Source of the DNA: [Limnothrix rosea] IAM M-220
GTDB lineage: Bacteria > Cyanobacteriota > Cyanobacteriia > Cyanobacteriales > MRBY01
Assembly: GCF_001904615.1 (NCBI RefSeq)
Contig: NZ_MRBY01000022.1
Span: forward strand, 1-58,746
Direction of reading: 5' to 3'
DNA: 58,746 bases
The notes under the pieces were generated by a model. That model saw nothing but the letters and a program-made list of their open reading frames with translations. It did not search any database and was not told the origin of the DNA. The position numbers were made by a program, and so were the translations under genes. The first letter of the stretch is position 1; every line of letters starts with the position of its first letter. Positions 30,591-33,141 of this stretch are shown here, piece after piece.

Positions 30591-31610
30591 TTAGACAGAT
30601 TGAAGGGCGATCGCCACCGTGAGAGGTTCCTGATTAGCCTGATTTAAAGTAATCGTAATGGGGTAGATGCCGTTTTCTTGACAGTCAACTAAAGTCAAAC
30701 ATAGATCGCCCGGATACATCCGCGATGCACTAGCAGAGCCTTGGGCACTTTCCCAAGTGACATGGCCACCTTGGGGGACACGCACCAACACACGAATGGT
30801 TTTACCAAGGGTCAAGTCAGATGCCGTAATATATTGTGCCTCGACGGCGATCGCCCCGACAGTCGTTTCAAACTTTGCCGATTTAAAAGGAGACTCAGAC
30901 GATAGAGAAATCACAAGATTCTCCATAATCTTTTGCGCCGCCAACATGGACATCACAATTTGCTGCTGCTCATTGGCCGTTTCGTAGTTCCCCTCAAGGA
31001 CAGCCGTAGCATCAGAACGACTCGGTTGCGGCGTGGTCACGATCCAATTGGCCATTTTGTGCAACATCATCGGATCCACATCAAATAAAGACTCCACCGC
31101 TTGCACAAGCTTAATGCCCTGAGGATTCAGCGATCGCATCGCTTCAGAACAAGACTGGATGAGCGCCTTTAAAGTCGATTGAGGCAAATTAAACGGATTC
31201 TCAAATGCCGCTAACTGAGGCTGCCAGAGAGAATCCTGCAGTGCCTGTTCCGCTTGTTGCTCCTCAATGAAATAGGCCTCATTGCCCGTTTCCCAAGGAA
31301 AGCGAGGGGGGTTGTTTTCAGTTTCCTGAAGCAAGCGATCCTTTAATAAATTTTGGTAGCGCGTTTCAATCGCGTTGAAAGTGGTCATATTCGTTGATAA
31401 TTCCTCGTCAGTAACATGGTCTGGTAGAAGCTCCGATGACAACAATTCAGCCCCTATTGCATCCCTCTCAAGTTCAGATACCGAATCAGGATAATTGCTT
31501 GACCAAGGCTGATGTTTTTCTTCATGTAAACCCAGTTCTTTCTCCGACGCTGTCGGAGGATTAAGCGAATTTTGGGAAGCATTTGTTTGTTTATCCATGT
31601 CACTATTCAC
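30591..31610 (-). CDS. patU: PatU-like protein
   Basis: A 339-residue soluble protein directly downstream of the hetZ homologue (75-base gap, same strand). The N-terminal ~90 residues are acidic and disordered-looking, then PPRFPWETGNEAYF (about residues 100-113) carries the RFPW motif I associate with PatU. A conserved helical region follows (QSTLKALIQSCSEAMRSLNP to LEGNYETAN). The C-terminal ~90 residues look beta-rich. In Anabaena hetZ is followed by split patU5/patU3 genes that act in heterocyst patterning; a single undivided patU occurs in other filamentous cyanobacteria. The name rests mainly on synteny and general resemblance. Confidence 0.6.
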   Translation of the reverse strand: MNSDMDKQTNASQNSLNPPTASEKELGLHEEKHQPWSSNYPDSVSELERDAIGAELLSSELLPDHVTDEELSTNMTTFNAIETRYQNLLKDRLLQETENNPPRFPWETGNEAYFIEEQQAEQALQDSLWQPQLAAFENPFNLPQSTLKALIQSCSEAMRSLNPQGIKLVQAVESLFDVDPMMLHKMANWIVTTPQPSRSDATAVLEGNYETANEQQQIVMSMLAAQKIMENLVISLSSESPFKSAKFETTVGAIAVEAQYITASDLTLGKTIRVLVRVPQGGHVTWESAQGSASASRMYPGDLCLTLVDCQENGIYPITITLNQANQEPLTVAIALQSV

Positions 31611-31685
31611 GTCGAAATATTTAAGATCAGGACAGTTACTTACGTATTTTTTGAAAAAGTTATAAAAATACGCCAGTGAATCTAA

Positions 31686-32891
31686 CTAAGTCAGGGTTTT
31701 GTTACGGAGATCCCAAGCGGTCTCTAGGAGCTTTCCCCAGAGTTTATCAGTTTGAGATGGTGTCAGGGAAAGGCTTTTGGCTATTTCCTTATGGGTTAGT
31801 CCCTGTTGCTTTAGCTCCAGTAGTTTTTGTTGAGGGTCACTTAATTCTTCAAGGAGATTGTCCCACTGGCTCGGTGTTAACCCAAGATTTTGTTCCAAAG
31901 TCGCCCCAAGCCACTGGTGTACCAATTCCCAATTGTGGGACAGGGCAAAACGAATTAAATGGTATTTAAAGCGTTGTTGTAGATAGTCTCGCTGGCGAGG
32001 CGTTAAGCCTAGTACAGACTCGATTTCAGCCGTTGCACAGTCCCGCAGCCGCAAGACAAAATAGTCTATGCAATCTAGTTGCTGTTTTTCTTCTAAATAT
32101 TGGATTAGCTCTTGGGCAACGGTTTCCCGGAGGTTGCGGTCGGTGAGTTCGTTATCTTCACCTTGGGTTGCCATGTACGTACGTAGTTGTTGCATGGCTA
32201 CGCCTTCCCATTCTTTGTCGTCACGACTAAAGGAGCTTTCGGCTGCGGTCATATCGACGGAAGCTTCTAGGGGTTGCTGCTGGGAAAAGGTTTGGGCTCT
32301 AAGGATGATGAGTTGCTGCGATCGCCCCCGGGAAAAGGTAATCCGACGCTTCGCATAACGCTCGGTAAAGGCCATGTATTCAGATAATTCTAGGAGGCTA
32401 CGGGGACTATAGGTGGGTAAAACATCGGCTTCTCGCCGGAAGGCATTTAATGTTTCTGCGTAAAAACCTTGTAAAAAGTCTTCAATGAGATTGACCTTCG
32501 CCTGATAGCTGGAAATCCCTTGCCGGAGAGAAATGTAGCGATAAATAATGGCGCTTAGGGTACTTTGCAGCTCAACCCTGCCGCGCCTTGAGCCGAGTTT
32601 GTAGTAGTTTAGGCATTGGCGAATGCGGTGTTCGGCAAGGTTTTTTTGCCATTTGCCGACCTCGCCTGTGCGTTGAATGCGATCGCTTTCTCGGCAGATC
32701 CGATTGACTTCTTCCACGATGCGCTCTGCCACCTGATGACATTGCGATTCAGACGCTTTTGTTGATTGCTCTAATTGCTGTTGGGTGAACTGAACAAGTG
32801 ACTCCACGTTTGCGTAGGTAACCCCTCTGAAGTTGCTAATTGTCATTTTAGGTGAATAATTCAAATGAAGCCCATAATCTCTTAGATCCAT
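31686..32891 (-). CDS. hetZ: HetZ homologue
   Basis: A protein of up to 401 residues that closely resembles HetZ, a regulator needed early in heterocyst differentiation in Anabaena. Characteristic blocks are LGSRRGRVELQSTLSAIIYR (about residues 97-116), LLELSEYMAFTERYAKRRI, QQLIILRAQTFSQQQP and LTPRQRDYLQQRFKYHLIRF. The C-terminus has an HTH-like KEIAKSLSLTPSQTDKLWGK, giving a sigma-factor flavour. ATG 32891 and ATG 32846 are both possible starts; neither has a clear ribosome-binding site. No heterocyst genes are seen here, so the role may be more general, such as in cell division or motility. Confidence 0.85.
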   Translation of the reverse strand: MDLRDYGLHLNYSPKMTISNFRGVTYANVESLVQFTQQQLEQSTKASESQCHQVAERIVEEVNRICRESDRIQRTGEVGKWQKNLAEHRIRQCLNYYKLGSRRGRVELQSTLSAIIYRYISLRQGISSYQAKVNLIEDFLQGFYAETLNAFRREADVLPTYSPRSLLELSEYMAFTERYAKRRITFSRGRSQQLIILRAQTFSQQQPLEASVDMTAAESSFSRDDKEWEGVAMQQLRTYMATQGEDNELTDRNLRETVAQELIQYLEEKQQLDCIDYFVLRLRDCATAEIESVLGLTPRQRDYLQQRFKYHLIRFALSHNWELVHQWLGATLEQNLGLTPSQWDNLLEELSDPQQKLLELKQQGLTHKEIAKSLSLTPSQTDKLWGKLLETAWDLRNKTLT

Positions 32892-33141
32892 TCAGCTTTG
32901 GAGAGTATTTGCGGAGCTTATATTCTTTCTCAAGATTTTTTGCGTAAATCCTGACAAAAGGAGAAATGTTTACGTCAAAATGACTACGTAGTGCAGGTCT
33001 GTTGTGTCGTCCGAGGTTGGGGATAGGCGCAATCTTTGGGGCTTGGGGTTTAAGGGTTTGTCGAGTTTTTGCTTGGCTTTGTGTTTAAGGTTGGTGCGTG
33101 ATGTTTTGTAGCAGGGCGGTGAGTGTAGGGGATAAAAAATA

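Follow-up and report, generated by a model that had tools for sequence, protein, structure and literature searches.

The stretch of DNA analysed here (the window) comprises 58,746 nt of contig NZ_MRBY01000022.1 from [Limnothrix rosea] IAM M-220 and carries a hetZ gene followed by an undivided patU. The results make it likely that this hetZ-patU pair is a vertically inherited unit of an ancestral multicellularity set, consisting of HetR, PatX, HetZ and PatU, that sets division or breakage in a nif-less and probably filamentous host. The identity of the two genes, their adjacency, their near-complete co-occurrence with HetR and the absence of nifD from the host are established, as is the fact that relatives with Synechococcus-type names lack hetZ and patU and have no patX at its place. 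With a host that lacks nifD and relatives with single-cell names that lack the pair, the pattern agrees with an older function in the life of filaments, not in nitrogen-fixing cells. The pair belongs to an already described kind. hetZ and patU have been in print from non-heterocystous filamentous species since at least 2010, with a more general function remarked upon (PMC2821919), and from a nif-less Leptolyngbya since 2024 (PMC11298460); the pair that the first-pass annotation noted in a genome without visible heterocyst genes is in this respect not new.

The product of 31686-32891 on the reverse strand is, judged by sequence, a genuine member of the HetZ family. It covers the whole of model NF037963 (heterocyst_HetZ) at 600.6 bits (cut-off 550, E 9.2e-181, residues 33-397), whereas the paralogue models are weaker (HetZ_related 490.4 bits, cut-off 612; HetZ_rel_2 83.9 bits, cut-off 400). 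A second in-frame ATG stands at residue 16, and the choice of start between the two is provisional. The protein has no match among the sequences of the Protein Data Bank (PDB), and two more HetZ-like genes of the host genome, on contigs C20 and C21, both fall below the cut-off. The open reading frame (ORF) behind it, 30591-31610 on the same strand, is by homology to ORFs behind hetZ an undivided PatU. PatU was matched by tblastn to the ORF downstream of hetZ at 30/30 loci of the phylum (L006-L035; E 1e-19 to 7e-41), and a 13-row profile of ORFs behind hetZ, with the window's own as one row, gave 400.7 bits (E 6.9e-120). The named HetZ loci examined for PatU include some of Nostoc, Calothrix, Cylindrospermum and Fischerella, and none named PCC 7120. 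PatU matched nothing in Pfam, NCBIfam or the PDB sequences, where just scattered weak matches appear at E <=10. Its AlphaFold2 model has a mean predicted local distance difference test (pLDDT) score of 78.7 overall, with no predicted structure for residues 1-68 and two predicted domains behind them (Table 1); matches to the beta-strand domain are weak and generic (best Foldseek E 8.7e-3), and no function was read off it. With a gap of 75 nt on one strand, hetZ and patU likely form one transcription unit.

What the first-pass annotation had observed is thereby confirmed, including the adjacency of the pair and the single 339-aa frame of patU. The latter is ordinary, however. A split or shortened patU, defined as internal stops or an open frame below 290 aa in a table of 71 PatU genomes, occurs in 23/37 genomes inside f6, the family with heterocyst formers, and in 0/34 outside it, so that an undivided patU is the common state.

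The co-occurrence of the genes was examined in a phylum sample of 339 genomes drawn evenly (G numbers denote its genomes, G000 being that of the window, and L numbers denote loci); the genomes are related, and the counts are therefore not independent events. HetZ above cut-off was found in 71, PatU in 71 and HetR_C in 73. Of the 74 genomes with at least one of these, 69 have all three, the five exceptions being G022, G253, G227, G058 and G083, the last two with HetR only. PatU is present at 69/70 other HetZ loci of the sample and at 79/79 named HetZ loci, which belong to the 80 best-matching of at least 543 relatives (L060 left out; some genomes are shared with the sample). The host genome (4.07 Mb in 92 contigs; completeness 100, contamination 0.03) has hetR, hetZ and patU, with hetR on a contig other than the window's. 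The best match to nifD in it reached 48.9 bits against a cut-off of 653.55, and the same search also matches the control Synechococcus elongatus. nifD is likewise absent, meaning no match better than weak ones at about 1e-9 to 1e-15, from 17 of the 70 genomes with HetZ and PatU, spread over 10 families. These results support the proposal of the first-pass annotation that the role of the pair is older than heterocysts. Its view of a genome without visible heterocyst genes holds for the DNA it could see and for nifD, but not for hetR; no search was aimed at hetP, hetC, hgl, patS or hetN. The pair is accompanied in the host genome by hetR and a patX-like gene, and so is not on its own. The earlier interpretation as a whole is thus partly supported.

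The host family is represented in the collection by six genomes, all of one genus that also holds Picosynechococcus, and these differ in gene content. HetZ and PatU are present in three, namely the host, G339 and G341 (Limnothrix sp. RL_2_0). The other three (G058, G083 and G340) have neither; they gave zero matches to the HetZ model, and so no HetZ paralogue, and one PatU match, in G083, at E 0.12. Plasmid stretches of 100% identity name these as Picosynechococcus sp. PCC 7117 (G058), PCC 7003 (G083) and [Synechococcus] sp. NIES-970 (G340). G339, a single contig of 5,125,950 bases, is presumably Leptolyngbya sp. PCC 7376, and from their names we take the HetZ-less trio to be unicellular and the other three to be filamentous. 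The two trios are separated with a support of 1.000 in the unrooted tree of one flanking protein; for a second flanking protein, with G339 left out, the HetZ-less group has a support of 0.48. The three rows of the genus form one side of a branch in a HetZ tree of 73 rows (Shimodaira-Hasegawa-like approximate likelihood ratio test 100). HetZ of the host is 88% identical to that of G339, and PatU is 78% identical to that of G339 and 57% to that of G341.

It could be argued that some members of the genus gained hetZ-patU horizontally, and not that others lost it. The genus tree is unrooted, and within the stretches compared hetZ and patU are the sole genes that G339 shares with the host or with G341, so that neither a conserved locus nor a scar is seen; in the HetZ-less relatives the two flanking genes that were searched are distant from each other, with no deletion-scar locus to compare. 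Such a gain is nevertheless improbable. A match to HetR_C is present in PCC 7117 and PCC 7003 (none in NIES-970), hetR lies between aspS and recA in these two as in the host and G339, and the five HetR rows of the genus form one clade (100/100), so that the ancestor had HetR. In the HetR and HetZ trees alike, G116 is the sister row of the genus, though only moderately supported (77/86 and 84, respectively).

The hetR locus itself differs between the two kinds of member. The spacing from hetR to the next shared gene is 3,037 bases in the host and 280 and 283 bases in PCC 7117 and PCC 7003. The longer stretch holds patX, a second peptide ORF, an egtB-like gene and egtC, all missing at that place in the two strains; the absence of patX is meant here as absence beside hetR, not genome-wide. 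HetR residue 223 is an arginine in 70/70 rows outside the genus and in the three HetZ-bearing genomes, and an alanine in PCC 7117 and PCC 7003 (these counts leave out G170b and G213b, the rows of two divergent paralogues). Both strains also have H in place of D270, which is constant in the 70 rows, and K in place of E222, and PCC 7003 has N in place of D256. R223 is required for peptide binding by HetR, and R223W abolishes binding in Nostoc HetR (PMC7476756). With patX gone from its place and the peptide-binding arginine gone as well, the changes suggest that these elements form one linked set with hetZ-patU. A strong acceleration of HetR in the HetZ-less relatives (branch 1.17 vs 0.16) was considered and set aside as a minor point in view of a long-branch warning and the divergent neighbours. 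A second, very divergent HetR paralogue was seen in G170 (L262) and G213 (L263), with end branches above one change per column.

The patX-like ORF of the host encodes 71 aa with RGSGR and a hydrophobic N-terminus and lies upstream of, and divergent from, hetR on contig C11. It fits the description of PatX in being small, carrying RG(S/T)GR and lying near hetR; export is predicted by a hydrophobicity rule alone. The patX-like ORF filter, applied to 40 HetZ loci (204,061 bases), gave one match, and none in the window. PatX-like ORFs with three or four RG(S/T)GR copies per protein lie upstream of hetR in G213 (L255) and G170 (L256).

Adjoining patX in 3/3 HetZ-bearing genomes of the genus is another small ORF, which begins like a signal peptide and has TC...RGCGRR as its conserved end. 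It has RGCGR in all three in place of the RG(S/T)GR pentapeptide, and its ratio of non-synonymous to synonymous change (dN/dS) is 0.25-0.28, a rough value at a dS of 1.3-2.4. At the hetR loci examined beyond the genus, 72 in number, no RGCGR ORF passed the same filter, and no mention of RGCGR was found in the best-ranked PatX literature, a search that did not take in Elhai and Khudyakov (2018), the main PatX paper. This ORF is a candidate for a second HetR-type peptide signal.

Table 1. Features of the hetZ-patU pair in the window, and the second peptide ORF beside patX
Feature	Position	Strand	Remarks
hetZ	31686..32891	-	401 aa, ATG start at 32891; NF037963 match
patU, undivided	30591..31610	-	339 aa in a single open frame starting with GTG
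Gap between hetZ stop and patU start	31611..31685	-	75 nt, same strand
hetZ upstream region	32892..33141	-	without HetR-recognition sequence GGGN5CCC
HetZ residues 343-379, sigma-70 region-4-like helix-turn-helix	31755..31865	-	Pfam PF08281 Sigma70_r4_2, 27.3 bits, cut-off 25.7
PatU residues 69-231, predicted helical domain	30918..31406	-	AlphaFold2 model
PatU residues 233-336, predicted beta-strand domain	30603..30914	-	AlphaFold2 model; weak fn3/Ig/YEATS-type matches
RGCGR peptide ORF, candidate	L187:10228-10398, L185:6334-6504, L186:10246-10434	+, -, +	C11 of the host and two relatives

According to Du et al. (PMC7377430), HetR controls hetZ by way of a recognition site, and HetZ in turn controls patS, patX and hetR by way of DIF1 promoters. 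The search for the recognition sequence GGGN5CCC covered the 1,200 bases that precede the conserved HetZ part (372 in the case of G039), with the expectation taken from mononucleotide shuffling. It was found in 33 of 38 f6 genomes (3.1 expected), in 31 of these 33 at 454-558 bases upstream, in 0/3 genomes of the host genus (0.4 expected) and in 5/32 other genomes (6.4 expected), which is near chance. The host therefore has no Anabaena-type site, and outside f6 control by HetR might run through another site. The absence of GGGN5CCC upstream of hetZ, chance-level matches aside, outside the heterocyst-former family suggests that control of hetZ by HetR through it was a late step tied to heterocyst evolution.

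These data also bear on whether the pair is the remnant of a heterocyst programme, in which an ancestor made heterocysts and lost nif, leaving hetZ-patU to drift. The absence of nifD from the host would agree with this, as would the HetZ C-terminal domain of G341, which is in another frame. A remnant, already disfavoured, is however very improbable. Both genes look constrained between the host and G339, with a dN/dS of 0.03 for hetZ (rough, as a dS of 2.2 is saturated) and 0.16 for patU, the latter ranging over 0.16-0.21 among the host, G339 and G341. The HetR site that marks hetZ in the heterocyst-former family is missing in the genus, and the pair occurs without nifD in the 10 families noted above.

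For the pair as a unit of the multicellularity set, the following mechanism is proposed. HetZ would be a DNA-binding activator, with its C-terminal sigma-region-4-like domain as the probable promoter-contacting part. PatU would bind and restrain HetZ and would also slow septation, as shown for Anabaena PatU3. An exported RGSGR peptide would provide the signal read by HetR. The likely output is which cells of the filament stop dividing or break, and thus filament length and fragmentation. We infer that the host is filamentous and that such wiring is at work with this output; the HetZ-dependent DIF1 promoters, the binding of PatU3 to HetZ and the effect of PatU3 on division come from Anabaena only. 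The idea that HetR and PatX act in fragmentation is in print (PMC7761841, PMC12756182). Anabaena PatU3 limits septal peptidoglycan synthesis, interacts with ZipS and is cleaved by HetF (PMC12288457). Because it limits septal wall synthesis, division control is a plausible output of the pair in a heterocyst-less filament, and the role in cell division guessed at in the first-pass annotation agrees with this.

The same properties of PatU3 would be expected if HetZ-PatU were mainly a divisome brake in every cell, with no patterning or peptide signal in this species. Transcriptomes of Leptolyngbya BL0902, in which the effect of PatX is independent of HetR (PMC11298460), point in that direction too, and they weaken the peptide step proposed above. 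Still, a brake of this kind seems rather unlikely, as patX at its place and the HetR arginine are absent together with hetZ-patU, which suggests one linked set.

Several further points weigh against the pair being a unit of the multicellularity set. The filamentous habit of the host is an assumption. The absence of hetZ-patU within the genus is probably one loss event, so that n is about 1. HetR of PCC 7117 and PCC 7003 is 61-62% identical to that of the host (90% for G339), little beyond the divergence of the locus neighbours (51-89%), and is thus just somewhat exceptional. Conserved HetR positions, defined as those conserved in at least 90% of the 70 rows, are changed in both strains throughout the protein (DNA-binding 23/80, flap 18/69, hood 13/34), compared with 12, 15 and 2 changes in the same classes in the host. 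G227 (L144/L265; 6.2 Mb) has HetZ at 638 bits and PatU with no HetR_C match; in f6, G022 is without an intact hetZ-patU pair, and HetZ of G253 (f7) is broken into two. In favour of the unit, the DIF1 sequence TCCGGA precedes patX in the host and G339, beginning 67 nt before it, but it is absent upstream of patX in G341. As a general mark of patX it was rejected, being present upstream of 3/24 ORFs over all lineages against 0.98 expected (three of the 24 are RGCGR ORFs). Wiring from HetZ to patX is therefore not demonstrated here, since exact TCCGGA is near chance and absent in G341.

The first-pass annotation had recognised a helix-turn-helix-like C-terminus in HetZ, and the type of domain is indeed DNA-binding. 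Pfam favours sigma region 4 over GerE (27.3 vs 12.3 bits), the former passing its cut-off, and PF08281 matches 27/38 rows of HetZ relatives at E <=10 (A3; best 2.5e-8). Residues 337-401 of a predicted HetZ model (38 sequences; mean pLDDT 67.9) superpose on ten sigma chains at Z 8.2-8.8 with a root-mean-square deviation (rmsd) of 1.3-1.9 over 56-64 residues. LuxR-type chains reach Z 7.3-7.9, so structure alone does not separate them from sigma region 4, and for mostly helical models a Z of up to about 13 may mean a common arrangement only. Whole sigma-28 chains lead the Foldseek results without significance (E 0.07; template modelling scores 0.16/0.27). HetZ as a full sigma factor was rejected, as the chain-spanning alignments have an rmsd of 11-29 and only the C-terminal domain is usable. 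A second region-4-like helix-turn-helix at residues ~272-318 was likewise discarded, with sub-cut-off Pfam scores of 12-15 bits in 3/5 segments and none in the window's segment.

DIF1 promoters of Anabaena have an element at -35 (PMC6133370); they need HetZ, and HetZ without residues 289-401 loses PatU3 binding (PMC7377430). Because of the region-4 fold, the position of DIF1 at -35 and the C-terminal binding of PatU3, a sigma-like activator with an anti-sigma-like partner is suggested. The region-4-like C-terminus of HetZ would then act on DIF1 (TCCGGA) at -35, with PatU as the antagonist on the same part. This is possible, though doubtful. SigC, SigE and SigF are the candidate readers named for DIF1 promoters (PMC6133370), and, unlike in sigma factors, no region 2 was recognised by sequence in HetZ; no region-2 Pfam family appears in the 38 HetZ relatives among the 25 of 59 matches listed. 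The words 'sigma', 'DNA-binding' and 'helix-turn-helix' are all absent from the main text of PMC7377430. If true, hetZ-patU would be a sigma/anti-sigma-like cell-fate switch along the filament, older than heterocysts.

Irregular HetZ genes were seen elsewhere in the phylum. The C-terminal helix-turn-helix is in the -1 frame in G341 (L037 ~2490, also L060) and in G213 (L171 ~2990), genomes of different orders, and the switch falls at the same codon pair (CTC AAA AAC / CTC AAA AAG). It may be a chance deletion, an assembly error or a programmed frameshift. Frame breaks among 153 HetZ loci were found only in these two and in G022 and G253, where they are of another type. In G022 (L170:2923-5751), a genome with nifD and no PatU match, the greater part of HetZ forms an in-frame fusion with a transglutaminase membrane protein of the TgpA type, and the two HetZ pieces of G253 (L180) lie ~1.36 kb apart with an intact PatU behind. 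A record titled Prochloron sp., a metagenome-assembled genome of a unicellular genus, holds a HetZ gene (L136:2787-3908) followed after 314 nt by a weaker match to PatU, and is either a binning error or a real exception.

Among known systems, hetZ-patU5-patU3 of Anabaena/Nostoc PCC 7120 (alr0099, alr0101) has the same two families in the same order, whereas here patU is undivided, hetZ lacks the upstream GGGN5CCC and the genome lacks nifD. Another counterpart is hetZ-patU of Leptolyngbya sp. BL0902 (GFS31_16620-16630), a nif-less filamentous non-heterocystous strain with hetR, patX and the pair (PMC11298460); its hetR is reported to lie directly downstream of patX and to be apparently co-transcribed with it, whereas patX of the host is divergent from hetR and followed by the RGCGR ORF. 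The core set of filamentous cyanobacteria includes hetR, hetZ and patU3 (PMC2821919), and hetR, hetZ and patU are also present here, although the host genus includes members without hetZ and patU, two of them with a changed HetR. HetR without PatX is a recurrent pattern (0110, 12.0%) among 474 genomes surveyed (PMC12756182). The within-genus contrast, the R223 change, the family-limited HetR site and the sigma-region-4-like domain at the end of HetZ were not found in the literature searched, which did not extend to Elhai and Khudyakov (2018), nor was a pairing of Leptolyngbya PCC 7376 with hetR. PCC 7002 is mentioned together with hetR and hetZ in the available literature, where the contrast is not discussed, and because a supplementary legend of PMC2821919 names PCC 7002 among its tree abbreviations, a homologue in that strain may already have been seen.

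Finally, the role of hetR and patX in heterocyst-less cyanobacteria has been called a mystery (PMC11298460), and as hetZ-patU accompany these genes, the pair bears on it. The genus of the host offers a compact natural contrast between members with the full set and members without hetZ and patU and without patX at its place. The latter, which include Picosynechococcus strains akin to PCC 7002, keep at most a HetR without the peptide-binding arginine. This contrast makes the role of HetR and PatX testable by adding or removing a few genes in close relatives.

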